From the NCBI GenBank assembly GCA_017631385.1, contig JAGBTH010000125.1, positions 1 through 39,709 on the forward strand: a stretch of DNA of 39,709 nt, read 5' to 3'. Numbering within the stretch: the stretch's first letter is position 1; the number at the start of each line of letters is the position of its first letter. The notes beneath the pieces are model-generated. The model made no database searches and was not told the origin of the DNA. It saw only the letters and a list, made by a program, of their open reading frames with translations. A program made the position numbers and the translations under genes. Shown in pieces: positions 2,257 through 28,587 of this stretch. This DNA comes from Kiritimatiellia bacterium. Lineage in GTDB: Bacteria; Verrucomicrobiota; Kiritimatiellia; RFP12; UBA1067.

Positions 2257-2284
2257 GTATCTATTTTACTTCAATAAAAACATA

Positions 2285-2322
2285 GCCCGTGACTTTAAAA
2301 AAGTCGCGGGTTTTGTTTTTTT
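2285..2322 (+). terminator. Rho-independent terminator of the glycine-rich gene
   Basis: The arms are gcccgtgact and agtcgcgggt, which pair over 10 bases with G-U wobbles around a short A-rich loop. A T-rich run (ttttgttttttt) follows. It lies 28 bases after the stop codon and separates this gene from the comM-recA operon. Confidence 0.9.
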
Positions 2323-2385: not shown

Positions 2386-2455
2386 GAAGTGTTACATTAT
2401 CGTTACAATAACGTTACAAAAATGTAACGATAATGTAACGATAATGTAATACTTC
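2386..2455. promoter_or_regulatory. Palindromic array with 11-bp period upstream of comM
   Basis: Two 33-base arms (2386-2418 and 2423-2455) are inverted copies around an AAAA centre, with only three non-matching positions, one of them a possible G-T pair. The sequence is also built of 11-bp units: GTTACATTATC, GTTACAATAAC, GTTACAAAAAT, GTAACGATAAT, GTAACGATAAT, GTAATAC. The GTTAC orientation flips to GTAAC at the dyad. One helical turn is about 10.5 bp, so the units fall on one DNA face. The right end overlaps where the -35 of the promoter at 2469 would be. I infer a multi-site operator for the operon ending in recA. A hairpin acting in RNA (T-rich bases follow) is the alternative. Confidence 0.7.
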
Positions 2456-2468
2456 TTTTTCTTAAATA

Positions 2469-2477
2469 TGCGATAAT
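2469..2477 (+). promoter_or_regulatory. Likely extended -10 promoter for comM operon
   Basis: TGC-GATAAT matches an extended -10 with one mismatch from TATAAT. It lies 39 bases before the comM ATG and directly downstream of the palindromic array. No good -35 is visible outside the array. Confidence 0.5.
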
Positions 2478-2516: not shown

Positions 2517-4067
2517 ATGTTATCGAGATGTTATAGCGCCGCGGTAAATGGTGTTGACGCGTCAACTGTTGAGATAGAAGTGTATTCCGCTAAGGGTACA
2601 AATTCTTTTACGATAGTGGGCTTACCTGACACCGCTGTTAAAGAAGCTAAGGATCGTGTATCAACAGCGCTTAAGAATTCTGGGTATAAATCGAAAGATG
2701 AATTTTCGGTAACAGTTAATTTAGCGCCGGCTGATGTTAAAAAAGAAGGCCCTATTTATGATTTACCGATTGCGATTGGGCTTTTATGCGCTACAGGGCG
2801 GTTAAAGTCGTTGGATTTAGAGGATTATGCTTTAGTTGGTGAGCTTTCGCTTTCTGGTAAAGTTCGTCGTGTAAGAGGTATTTTACCAATGGTTATTGAG
2901 ATGAGGCGCATTGGTAAGGCTGCTGTTTTAGTTCCAGAAGAAAATGCTGAAGAAGCGAGTATTGTCTCAGGGATTGATATTATTCCTGTTGCGACATTGC
3001 GCGATGCGGCTGAGTTTTTAAACGGTAATCTTACTATCGAGCCTATATTTACAAATCTTGAAGATCTTGTTGAGTTAAATCGAGATAATGGTGATGATTT
3101 TGCAGATGTTAAGGGGCAAGCGTTCGTTAAGAGAGCTTTGGAGGTCGCGGTAGCTGGTGGCCATAATGTTCTGATGATTGGATCACCCGGCTCAGGTAAG
3201 ACGATGCTAGCGCGGCGAATACCGTCGATTTTACCGCCTATGTCAGTTGAGGAGGCCTTAGAAGTTTCGCGAATTCATTCAGTAGCTGGGCGTGAAAAAG
3301 GTGGCGGACGGTTTATCACTACTCGCCCGTTTCGCGCGCCGCATCATACTGTAAGTTCTATCGGGCTTTTAGGTGGTGGAGCGCATCCTTTACCGGGTGA
3401 AGTTTCGCTCGCGCATCGCGGCGTATTATTTTTAGATGAGTTTCCTGAATTTCCGCGCCAAGCGTTGGAAGTTTTGCGCCAACCGCTCGAAGATGGTCAT
3501 GTAGCTGTTTCTCGCGCAGCTGCTGCGTGCGATTACCCGAGTAGATTCATGCTTGTAGCAGCGATGAATCCTTGCCCATGTGGATATTATAATGATCCGA
3601 CGCGTGAGTGTCGTTGCAGTCAGTCTCAGATTTTAAAGTATCAGCGTAGAGTATCGGGACCTTTATTGGATCGTATAGATATTCAAGTTGGTGTTAGCGC
3701 AGTACCGGTTAAGGATTTAGATTCATTATCTACTGGGGAATCTAGTAGTGTAATTCGTGAGCGCGTTTTACAAGCTAGAGAAATGCAAAAATTACGTTAT
3801 CGAGGTGTTCACGGTGTATTTTCGAATGCGGATGCTAAAAGTCGAGATTTAAAAGAGGTTTGTAAGCTAACTACAGAGGCGGCGGGTGAGGTTAGACGAA
3901 CGATTGAAGCGCTTAGTCTTTCGGCTAGAGCGTACGATAGGATCTTAAGAGTCGCTAGAACTATAGCTGATCTCGCGGGTGAGGAATGTGTAAATCGCGA
4001 GGCTATACTTGAAGCTGCGTCATATAGGCAGTTGGATTCTGAGGATGGAGAGTCATTTTGGGCGTAA
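2517..4067 (+). CDS. comM: YifB/ComM family Mg-chelatase-like AAA+ ATPase
   Basis: The protein has 516 residues, the usual length for this family. The N-terminal Lon-S5-like (ChlI) domain begins with the typical MLSRCYSAAVNGVDA and carries NLAPADVKKEGPIYDLP. The AAA+ core has Walker A GSPGSGKT at residues 222-229 and Walker B GVLFLDEFPEF near 302. The cysteine motif NPCPCGYY follows, and the C-terminal Mg-chelatase domain ends the protein. ComM is known as a hexameric helicase that promotes branch migration during integration of transformed DNA. Other family members have no proven role. An AGAAAGGA Shine-Dalgarno supports the start. It is the first gene of an apparent operon with an unknown gene, yraN and recA, which agrees with a recombination role. 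Confidence 0.93.
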   Translation: MLSRCYSAAVNGVDASTVEIEVYSAKGTNSFTIVGLPDTAVKEAKDRVSTALKNSGYKSKDEFSVTVNLAPADVKKEGPIYDLPIAIGLLCATGRLKSLDLEDYALVGELSLSGKVRRVRGILPMVIEMRRIGKAAVLVPEENAEEASIVSGIDIIPVATLRDAAEFLNGNLTIEPIFTNLEDLVELNRDNGDDFADVKGQAFVKRALEVAVAGGHNVLMIGSPGSGKTMLARRIPSILPPMSVEEALEVSRIHSVAGREKGGGRFITTRPFRAPHHTVSSIGLLGGGAHPLPGEVSLAHRGVLFLDEFPEFPRQALEVLRQPLEDGHVAVSRAAAACDYPSRFMLVAAMNPCPCGYYNDPTRECRCSQSQILKYQRRVSGPLLDRIDIQVGVSAVPVKDLDSLSTGESSSVIRERVLQAREMQKLRYRGVHGVFSNADAKSRDLKEVCKLTTEAAGEVRRTIEALSLSARAYDRILRVARTIADLAGEECVNREAILEAASYRQLDSEDGESFWA

Positions 4068-4108: not shown

Positions 4109-4702
4109 ATGAATAATAATGAATACACCAATACTAATGCAACGAGGAGATTTAGACCTAAGTTGTCGTTTTATAGGGCGAATGCTAAATGTACGGGTGG
4201 AGCTTTAAAGTTGGAGCTTCATCCAGCGCATGATGATGTTGATGGCTCGATAATGGCGACTTTCGCTAAACAGCTTACTATTGGCGATAGGCATAAAATG
4301 CCTCCGGTTTTCGCGACATTTGATTGGGATAATAGTATTTGTGTTAAGTTGGATTTTAATGATCTTACTAAAATGCTCGAAGTTTTTAGAGGTTTTAAGG
4401 AGTCGCTAGAAGATGGTAAAGGGTTATTCCATGTTTCGCCCGCAGGTACAACTAAGATTTCGCTTCGCCATTTAGTTGAGCGCGAAGGTTGTTATTCATT
4501 CGATGTTTACAGGAGTAAGCCTGGCTCTCCCGAATCGAAGAGCGCTCATATTATGCTTTCGGCGAATGAAGCGTATGGACTAGCGATAGCTATAGAGGAT
4601 TCGTTAGGCGCGATATGCTTCGGGATTCCCGAAGTAATTCCGCGAGATACCAGTAATTATAAGCGCCGCGTTAAGGAGATGGGTAATGTTCCTGCTGCGT
4701 AA
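4109..4702 (+). CDS. Uncharacterised protein in the recA operon
   Basis: A 197-residue soluble protein with no signal peptide or membrane segment. I do not recognise a named domain. It begins with an Asn-rich tail (MNNNEYTNTNATRR). Predicted beta-type segments follow (FRPKLSFYRANAKCTGGALKLEL, written here only as its course from residue 16 to 38), then FATFDWDNSICVKLDF, GLFHVSPAGTTKISL and a C-terminal helical part around NEAYGLAIAIEDSLGAICFG. The order of strands then helix recalls small ssDNA-binding folds such as PC4/Whirly, but that is only an impression. It may be a lineage-conserved PVC protein. The GAAAGAGGTG Shine-Dalgarno is good. The 3' end overlaps yraN by 17 bases, so translation is probably coupled. 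Its place between comM and yraN-recA suggests DNA processing or recombination. Confidence 0.75.
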   Translation: MNNNEYTNTNATRRFRPKLSFYRANAKCTGGALKLELHPAHDDVDGSIMATFAKQLTIGDRHKMPPVFATFDWDNSICVKLDFNDLTKMLEVFRGFKESLEDGKGLFHVSPAGTTKISLRHLVEREGCYSFDVYRSKPGSPESKSAHIMLSANEAYGLAIAIEDSLGAICFGIPEVIPRDTSNYKRRVKEMGNVPAA

Positions 4703-5135
4703 GAAAGCGCGTAACCCCAACGCCAGTATTATAAACGGGCGTTGGGGTGAAGATGTTGCCGTTAAATTTCTTGAGCGGCGTGGGTATAAAATACTTGAGC
4801 GCAATGTTCGCCCTTATAAAAAGGATGAGCGACTCGAGATAGATATTGTCGCATATTCAGAAGAAGCGAGAGCTATTGTATTTGTAGAGGTTAAGCAGCA
4901 CTCTAAACATAGTGAATATGAGCGGCGCTTACGTAGTATTGATAGGCGAAAGCGTTTACTTATGCGCCGAGTTTGTAAGGCGTGGATTTTAGTGCATAAA
5001 TGGACGGGGTCGTACAGATTCGATGTTATTGAAGTTTTCGGAACGCCGGAAGCTAAAAATGAAGTTGAGATAGATCATATAGAGCGCGTTGATATTTTTG
5101 TCGGGCGTGAAAAATATGTAAATTGGTGCGAATAA
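4686..5135 (+). CDS. yraN: YraN family (UPF0102) nuclease-like protein
   Basis: A 149-residue protein with the full YraN/UPF0102 core: RWGEDVAVKFLERRGYKILERN near residue 20, the acidic pair EIDIVA, then IVFVEVKQHS. The spacing of E, D and ExK fits the PD-(D/E)xK nuclease fold of the family, which resembles Holliday-junction resolvases. The biochemical role remains largely unproven. It is slightly longer than the usual 115-130 residues. An AAGGAGATGGG Shine-Dalgarno lies inside the end of the preceding gene. With comM upstream and recA 32 bases downstream, a recombination function is plausible. Confidence 0.88.
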   Translation: MFLLRKKARNPNASIINGRWGEDVAVKFLERRGYKILERNVRPYKKDERLEIDIVAYSEEARAIVFVEVKQHSKHSEYERRLRSIDRRKRLLMRRVCKAWILVHKWTGSYRFDVIEVFGTPEAKNEVEIDHIERVDIFVGREKYVNWCE

Positions 5136-5167: not shown

Positions 5168-6190
5168 ATGGCCAAAGACGGAATAATAAATAAAATTAGT
5201 TCAGCTCTTGATGATGTAATGAAGTCAATACGTAAAGAATTTGGGGAGATGTCGATAATGCGCTTGGGCGAAGAAGCGCGTAGCGATATTGAAGCAATAT
5301 CAACGGGAGCACTTTCGTTAGATATGGCTTTAGGTATTGGAGGATTGCCTAAAGGGCGTATTATTGAACTTTATGGGCATGAATCATCGGGTAAAACCAC
5401 TCTCGCCTTACATGTAGTAGCGAACGCTCAAAAGTCTGGAGGTGTTGCCGCGTTTATAGATGCAGAGCATGCTTTAGATCCATCGTATGCGCGTAAAATC
5501 GGGGTGGATTTAGAGAATTTAGTAGTTTCGCAACCTTCAAGCGGAGAAGAAGCTCTATGTATTTGTGAGTCATTAATAAAATCTGGCGCTGTAGATGTAG
5601 TAGTTGTCGATTCTGTAGCTGCATTAACGCCTAGAGCTGAGATAGATGGTAATATGGGTGATAGTCACATTGGATTACAGGCGCGACTTATGTCTCAGGC
5701 AATGCGCAAATTAACTGCCGCGATAGCACAAACTAAGACATTGTGCATATTTACAAATCAAGTCCGCGACAAAATCGGGGTTATGTTTGGTAATCCTGAG
5801 ACTACGCCTGGTGGTAAGGCATTAAAGTTTTATGCTTCATGCAGATTGCAAGTTCAGCGTATCGGAGCGATAAAAAATAGTCAAAACGAAGTAGTTGGTA
5901 ATCGTACGCGTGTAAAAATTGTTAAAAATAAGGTCGCGCCTCCCTTTACTGATGCTGAATTTGATATTCTTTATTCTTGCGGAATTTCGCGAGAAGGCTC
6001 GGTTTTAGATGCGGCATTAGCGCGCGGCATAGTAGAGAAGCGCGGCAGTTGGATTAGTTATGGCTCTAGCCAATTAGGTCAGGGTACACTCGCGGCAATC
6101 GACTATTTAAGAGAAAATCCAGATGTTTGTGAAGAGATAATAGAAAAGGTACAAATAACCCCTGTTTTAGAAGCTAGTAAAAAGAAATAA
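5168..6190 (+). CDS. recA: Recombinase RecA
   Basis: A 340-residue RecA that forms the ATP-dependent filament on ssDNA for homologous recombination and SOS induction. Walker A is GHESSGKT at residues 70-77; most RecA proteins have Pro where His71 stands. The family signature [16 protein letters not shown] (usually ALKFYASVRLDIRR) is present, as are loop L1/L2 sequences ([19 protein letters not shown] and [21 protein letters not shown]). The C-terminus is short and Lys-rich (EASKKK) rather than acidic. A strong AAAGGGGG Shine-Dalgarno precedes the ATG. It closes the comM operon. No LexA gene is in the window, so SOS control cannot be judged beyond the array upstream of comM. Confidence 0.98.
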
Positions 6191-27894: not shown

Positions 27895-28587
27895 ATGAGT
27901 CTTTTGGGCGAAATATTGATAGTTGATGATGAACGTGTTGTGCGTTCTACGTTTAAGGCTATTTTTGAAGCCGAGGGGTATTCCGTATTGCTAGCGAAAG
28001 ATGGTGAAGAGGCGATTAAGATATTTCGTGAACATCGTCCGTTACTAGTTTTAATGGATGTTATGATGCCTAAAAAAAATGGTATTGCTGCTTGTTCTGA
28101 GATAAGAGTGATAGATCCGCTTGTGCCGATTTTAGCTTTTACTGCTATGCCTAATGATATTAATATGGTTAGGGCTTTAGGGTTAGGAGCCGATGACTAT
28201 ATAGCTAAGGATCGTCCTAAAGAAGAGTTTGTAGCTCGTGTTAACGCTGCAATAAGAAAGGCTCAGTCGGTAAAATCGCTGATTCCGGGCTATGGGGATG
28301 TGTGGAAGTCAGAGTCGACCATTATTGATTTTACTGAAATGAGGGTTACGTCTGATGGTGTAACTCATATATTAACTAAATCCGAGAGAGTTTTATTAAA
28401 GCTGCTTTTATCAGAGATAGGCAGATGTTTTTCATATAATGAGATATTTACTGCTTTAAAAGGCGAAGGTTATATTGGTGATGACGCTGCTATTCGCACT
28501 TTAGTTAGTAGGTTAAAAAACAAACTAGGCCGTTTAGGTTCGCGCTTAATAAGTCGCCGATCTTATGGGTATATGTTTACAAATTAA
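27895..28587 (+). CDS. Orphan OmpR-type response regulator
   Basis: A 230-residue regulator. The receiver domain has the acidic pair in IVDDE, the phospho-acceptor Asp in VLMDVMMPKKNG (near residue 54), Thr in AFTAM, and Lys in IAKDRP. The winged-helix DNA-binding domain (from about 150) has LTKSERVLLKLLL, CFSYNEIF, AIRTLVSRLKNKL and SYGYMF. It should bind DNA as a phosphorylation-dependent dimer. No histidine kinase gene is adjacent. The gap of 19 bases from queH and of 20 to the next gene suggests it is read within a longer transcript. Targets are unknown. Confidence 0.9.
   Translation: MSLLGEILIVDDERVVRSTFKAIFEAEGYSVLLAKDGEEAIKIFREHRPLLVLMDVMMPKKNGIAACSEIRVIDPLVPILAFTAMPNDINMVRALGLGADDYIAKDRPKEEFVARVNAAIRKAQSVKSLIPGYGDVWKSESTIIDFTEMRVTSDGVTHILTKSERVLLKLLLSEIGRCFSYNEIFTALKGEGYIGDDAAIRTLVSRLKNKLGRLGSRLISRRSYGYMFTN

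Follow-up and report, generated by a model that had tools for sequence, protein, structure and literature searches.

Upstream of a gene cluster that contains comM and recA, a Kiritimatiellae bacterium carries a short array of GTTAC/GTAAC units, and the question raised by this locus is what reads the array and for which purpose. The window, i.e., the whole stretch of DNA analysed (39,709 nucleotides), comes from a Kiritimatiellae metagenome-assembled genome (MAG) of 2.02 Mb that is 74% complete (G000); by comparison of comM, its closest named relatives are Kiritimatiellae MAGs from the ruminant gut. The genus sample comprises 61 genomes, which are incomplete MAGs; comM was located in 56 of them, and the regions upstream of it were oriented and 55 compared. 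On the basis of sequence comparison, the array can with good confidence be regarded as an activator operator of an orphan OmpR/PhoB-type response regulator (27895-28587), which would switch on comM-X-yraN-recA, most likely in the control of transformation.

The array, its promoter and the operon

A preliminary description of the locus reported six GTTAC/GTAAC units spaced by 11 bp with one change of orientation. The number of units, the constant step and the single flip are as described: GTTAC is found at 2391, 2402 and 2413 and GTAAC at 2424 and 2435, with the change of orientation at AAAA (about 2419-2422), whereas the sixth unit (2446) is GTAAT, with one mismatch. The two nearly perfect arms mentioned in that description were also recovered (2385-2418 and 2423-2456, 34 nt each, 91% complementary, with a gap of 4 nt). 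This array is the sole multi-unit site in the 2.02 Mb of the 74% complete genome, other two-unit matches being about as frequent as expected by chance. The features of the locus are listed below with their strand.

2284..2322 (+): intrinsic terminator of the upstream gene (terminator scan: 13-pair stem and T tract)
2391-2396, 2402-2407, 2413-2418 (-): three inverted half-sites GTTACA (sequence; most genus genomes have an inverted half-site at -56, ± 2 nt, from the extended -10)
2423-2428, 2434-2439, 2445-2450 (+): direct half-sites TGTAAC, TGTAAC and TGTAAT (sequence; genus-wide half-sites at -46, -35 and -24 from the extended -10)
2469..2477 (+): extended -10 element TGCGATAAT, without a -35 hexamer (alignment of 47 genus promoters)
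2517..4067 (+): comM, YifB-family Mg-chelatase-like AAA+ helicase (Pfam PF01078, PF13541, PF13335; NCBIfam TIGR00368, 605 bits)
4109..4702 (+): X, conserved 197-aa protein following comM in the genus (relatives 47-51% identical)
4686..5135 (+): yraN (UPF0102; PF02021, E 3.2e-20)
5168..6190 (+): recA (PF00154, E 4.7e-131)
27895..28587 (+): orphan response regulator of the OmpR/PhoB type, which is proposed to read the array (PF00072 and PF00486; in one clade with comM-adjacent regulators, support 100/99; recognition helix covaries with the array)

The Pfam and NCBIfam assignments agree with the comM-X-yraN-recA operon as first described, and this operon requires a promoter of its own because the intrinsic terminator closes the upstream gene. 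The array does end in the -35 region of a TGCGATAAT promoter, as had been claimed, the promoter-proximal half-site TGTAAT (2445-2450) occupying the place expected for the -35 box. In the -35 region of the 47 genus promoters, matches to TTGACA in at least 4 of 6 positions occur in 2%, against 13% in shuffles; the extended -10 was chosen by score, which makes the conservation of the -10 itself partly circular, a circularity that does not extend to the absence of the -35. As for X, no relative was found in Pfam, NCBIfam or the PDB, and structure prediction gave an uninformative model (pLDDT 33); the protein is a candidate for a new factor in transformation or recombination.

Geometry and letters of the array across the genus

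An 11-bp-phased array is present at the same place upstream of comM in 41 of the 55 genus regions. Within the 115 nt before the promoter, 384 identical 5-mers occur at a lag of 11, whereas dinucleotide shuffles give 9.8 ± 4.2; lag 22, a multiple of 11, is the other one that is clearly raised, besides weaker shoulders, and a control region 250 bp further upstream shows no lag-11 signal. When the regions are aligned on the extended -10, base identity at lag 11 peaks at -24..-19 and -35..-30, and nearly all arrays have direct half-sites at -24, -35 and -46, that is, with a head-to-tail period of 11 bp. These observations support the earlier view that a multi-unit operator lies on one helix face where the recombination operon has its promoter.

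The letters of the half-sites vary within the genus (TGTAAC, TGTCAC, CGTAAC, CGCAAC, CTTAAG, CGTAAG, CTTTAG, ATTAAG, TTCAAC, GACCC, GGACAC, CGCCAG). Conservation in relatives, on which the preliminary description would have let its proposal stand or fall, holds for the geometry at comM but not for the letters, and a refutation test based on letters would for this reason mislead. Sixteen genomes from other families of the same order have comM without an upstream array. A further Kiritimatiellae record (RGIG9934, L040:850-4192) has TTTTACAAAGA 11-bp repeats ahead of an operon whose comM gene has comEC as its immediate downstream neighbour.

According to the mechanism proposed, regulator monomers would bind the half-sites head to tail at 11-bp intervals, all on one face of the helix, and the promoter-proximal half-site would replace the missing -35 box. 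The bound regulator would then bring RNA polymerase to the extended -10, turning on comM-X-yraN-recA, with the inverted half-sites beyond the dyad adding further subunits. A point against this mechanism is that the spacing between half-site and -10 is about one helical turn longer here than that of PhoB. Members of the OmpR/PhoB family bind direct repeats, the half-sites of KdpE consisting of 6 bp with a 5-bp spacer, i.e., 11 bp (PMC3264566).

The same response regulator might instead repress the operon by keeping RNA polymerase off the -35 region, since the last half-site overlaps this region and the spacing of terminator and promoter is compatible with occlusion. This mode of action seems unlikely, however, as a promoter whose -35 hexamer is below chance (2% against 13%) would be weak when bare, and the spacing between half-site and -10 is fixed across many lineages, as is typically seen with activators.

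The orphan regulator and its recognition helix

The proposed activator comprises a receiver domain (PF00072, REC, 6.8e-28) and an OmpR-type winged helix (PF00486, Trans_reg_C, 1.6e-10). In nine genomes, a gene with this combination of domains ends 108-165 bp ahead of comM, and in a tenth the comM-adjacent response-regulator gene is cut by the contig end. The regulators adjacent to comM and that of the window belong to a clade of 53 members (support 100/99), which is set apart from the remaining OmpR-type regulators in those genomes and represented in nearly every genome by about a single copy (G080 has two members). The window protein is 73% identical to the member of its nearest relative (G009) and 44% identical to that of G023. 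Over 49 sequences, the receiver residues D58, D15 and K108 are invariant and position 86 (T86) is Thr or Ser. A regex search of the flanks (about 1.5 kb) found no kinase H-box. With the curated PhoB models the protein scores 106 bits (TIGR02154, cut-off 296) and 130 bits (NF053854, cut-off 270), and it is thus not a PhoB equivalog by these models.

Among 34 non-redundant genomes with clear arrays, the distance between half-sites correlates with the distance between recognition helices (r = 0.46, p = 2e-4, a Mantel value that treats genomes as exchangeable, phylogenetic dependence being the main statistical caveat), compared with r = 0.02 for the receiver and a weak r = 0.14 for the rest of the DNA-binding domain. 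The correlation with the helix is 0.45 when both of these are controlled for and 0.40 when the clear-array filter is omitted (42 genomes). Other OmpR-type regulators give r = 0.14, as against 0.78 for the clade members of those same genomes.

The best single columns are R204, T205 and L206 of the window protein, whereas A202 ranks fifth and R209 ninth; aligned by a shared Leu-Arg/Lys motif, R204, T205, L206, A202 and R209 correspond to PhoB D196, V197, H198, T194 and R201. The covarying residues therefore include base-contact positions of PhoB, which are T194, V197, R201 and R219 (PMC3264566). The strongest two among 2244 residue-base pairs are R204 with base 6 and R209 with base 2. Where residue 204 is Tyr, base 6 is G in 14 of 14 cases, and where it is Arg, 14 of 19 cases have C at base 6; of the remaining five, four belong to the TTCAAC group, a clade that conforms to the code only after a register shift of 1 nt, and the fifth is a genome with a degenerate array (G067). 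Asn, His or Gly at residue 209 is accompanied by T at base 2 in 12 of 12 cases, and Arg209 mostly by G. These pairings amount to a readable two-position code, in which Arg or Tyr at the equivalent of PhoB 196 goes with C or G at base 6, and Arg as opposed to Asn, His or Gly at the equivalent of PhoB 201 with G as opposed to T at base 2.

Helix and operator switch jointly between the sisters G003 (Arg, C) and G033 (Tyr, G; support 98/94), and between G005 plus G060 (CGTAAC) and G021 (CGTAAG) plus G064 (CTTAAG; support 96/90). Supported independent switches are few, namely these two and perhaps G068. Single steps are seen in one supported clade (CGTAAC/Arg-Arg, CGTAAG/Tyr-Arg, CTTAAG/Tyr-His). 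The idea that the DNA-binding domain has evolved at a strongly raised rate was considered and rejected, as its identity is 43% compared with 46% in other OmpR-type regulators at equal receiver identity.

A LexA-like or other DNA-damage repressor acting on the array would make recA damage-inducible, a reading encouraged by the presence of recA in the operon and by the palindromic operator before it, which resembles SOS boxes. The motif and the protein family are different, however, and this reading is highly improbable: the LexA DNA-binding domain (LexA_DNA_bind, PF01726) was detected in 4 of the 61 genus genomes, in all of them just at the cut-off, and not in the 74% complete genome of the window, while the covariation partner of the array is an OmpR-type regulator. 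In addition, CTGT is absent from 2386-2477, and the array accordingly lacks the E. coli-type LexA motif CTGT-N8-ACAG, a difference pointed out from the start. Of the damage or competence switch first suggested, the damage part is thus not sustained. Because the LexA domain is nearly absent from the genus and recA is present, a response regulator may have taken over the control of recA.

An RNA element, in the form of a long hairpin that terminates, attenuates or stabilizes the transcript, had been left as an option and is hardly tenable, although the array strand folds at -41.8 kcal/mol (shuffles -10.9 ± 2.7, z = -11.4) into a 34-bp hairpin of very high stability, with T-rich sequence after it: the array lies 5' of the -10 and would fall outside the comM transcript, a terminator is already present upstream, the array region has no Rfam match, the 11-bp phase lacks an evident meaning in RNA, and most relatives, with one inverted and three direct units, lack the long hairpin seen in the window.

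Probable targets of the proposed operator and related systems

Further arrays were sought with genome-specific motifs, reversed control patterns matching nothing, and a single-target regulon was rejected on account of additional arrays in G009, G064, G066, G017, G005, G004 and G028. An array with the same promoter precedes comEC in G066 and G017 (motif search) and in G033, G011 and G075 (profile scan), and it precedes a yraN gene relocated out of the operon in G004 and G028. In addition, comEC closely follows comM, with contig and strand in common, in G004, G018, G028, G059 and G067, and it lies just upstream of the regulator gene in G077; the profile scan found no array at comEC of the window's own genome. 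The targets encountered are the comM operon, comEC, yraN and some mobile genes, with no Pho regulon genes among them. Known regulators of the transformation pathway (TfoX/Sxy-CRP, ComE, ComK, ComX) are unrelated to the regulator of the array. The genes controlled are those of this pathway, i.e., the helicase ComM (PMC11612176), the helicase-associated nuclease YraN, which assists transformation, the recombinase RecA and the DNA channel ComEC (PMC12455585). Since the operator is common to comM, yraN, recA and, in some relatives, comEC, control of natural transformation is most likely, and the array would most likely be the operator of a natural-transformation regulon; the competence part of the switch first suggested is in this respect retained.

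Array promoters also precede Y1 (RAYT-type) transposase genes, two in G009 (L259:3110-4397, L260:300-430) and one in G005 (G005:C21:34463, L306), the copies in G009 being surrounded by GGGGGACTGTCCCCC palindromes. In G064, five copies of an ORF6N-domain gene (L299, L300, L301, L302, L303) are each located behind a CTTAAGG array and promoter. Because transposase and ORF6N genes are driven by the array in some relatives, transformation is not its sole output. A TTCAAC-type array (about 3024-3051) in G028 (C6:6323, L308) stands before the gene of a 184-aa protein without a Pfam family, which is another possible regulon member.

The transposase-linked copies in the nearest relative (G009) and in G005 could suggest that the array is a mobile palindrome (REP/MITE-like) tied to these transposases and inserted at comM, but this is barely credible, as those copies carry the whole promoter with equal spacing to TGCGATAAT, most genus genomes have the comM array at a single position, with letters that are specific to the lineage and fit the regulator, and the genome of the window has a single copy. 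Mobile elements seem to have taken over a host competence promoter.

The proposed activator operator shares with the Pho box of PhoB and the half-sites of KdpE the head-to-tail arrangement of half-sites of about 6-7 bp, the 11-bp period, the AT-rich spacers, a promoter without a good -35, a winged-helix regulator and covarying residues among which are positions where PhoB touches bases (PMC3264566). It differs from them in that three direct units are combined with one to three inverted ones, the letters differ between sister species, the target is a recombination/transformation operon rather than phosphate or potassium genes, and no kinase gene was found beside the regulator. An OmpR-type response regulator over competence genes is also known in Synechococcus elongatus (RpaA; PMC7125226); RpaA is a circadian regulator of global reach whose kinases are known and whose targets are many, whereas the regulator described here would be a dedicated orphan with one to few targets. 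What the sequences show directly is the array with its constant geometry, the promoters in common, the regulator clade and the covariation of helix and half-site; from these we infer that the regulator binds the array, activates rather than represses, is phosphorylated in response to a signal and has a role in DNA uptake.

The components of this system are of known kinds. In the open-access literature searched, the coverage of which is incomplete, neither this regulon nor operator drift of this kind was found to be described, and the same holds for the control of competence in this Kiritimatiellae lineage. The balance of evidence tips slightly towards a dedicated transformation regulator whose operator and helix are re-tuned together within one genus by single residue and base steps, which would record a partial OmpR/PhoB-type recognition code and insulate the competence circuit of each species from incoming homologues. 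About 40 orthologous pairs from one genus, with fixed geometry and changing letters, represent an unusually clean case of coevolution between transcription factor and operator, and the two residue-to-base rules are directly testable by mutation. As only the geometry is conserved here, operator searches based on motif conservation can miss real regulons. For the organisms themselves, the analysis predicts a transformation regulator for a whole lineage of uncultured gut bacteria.
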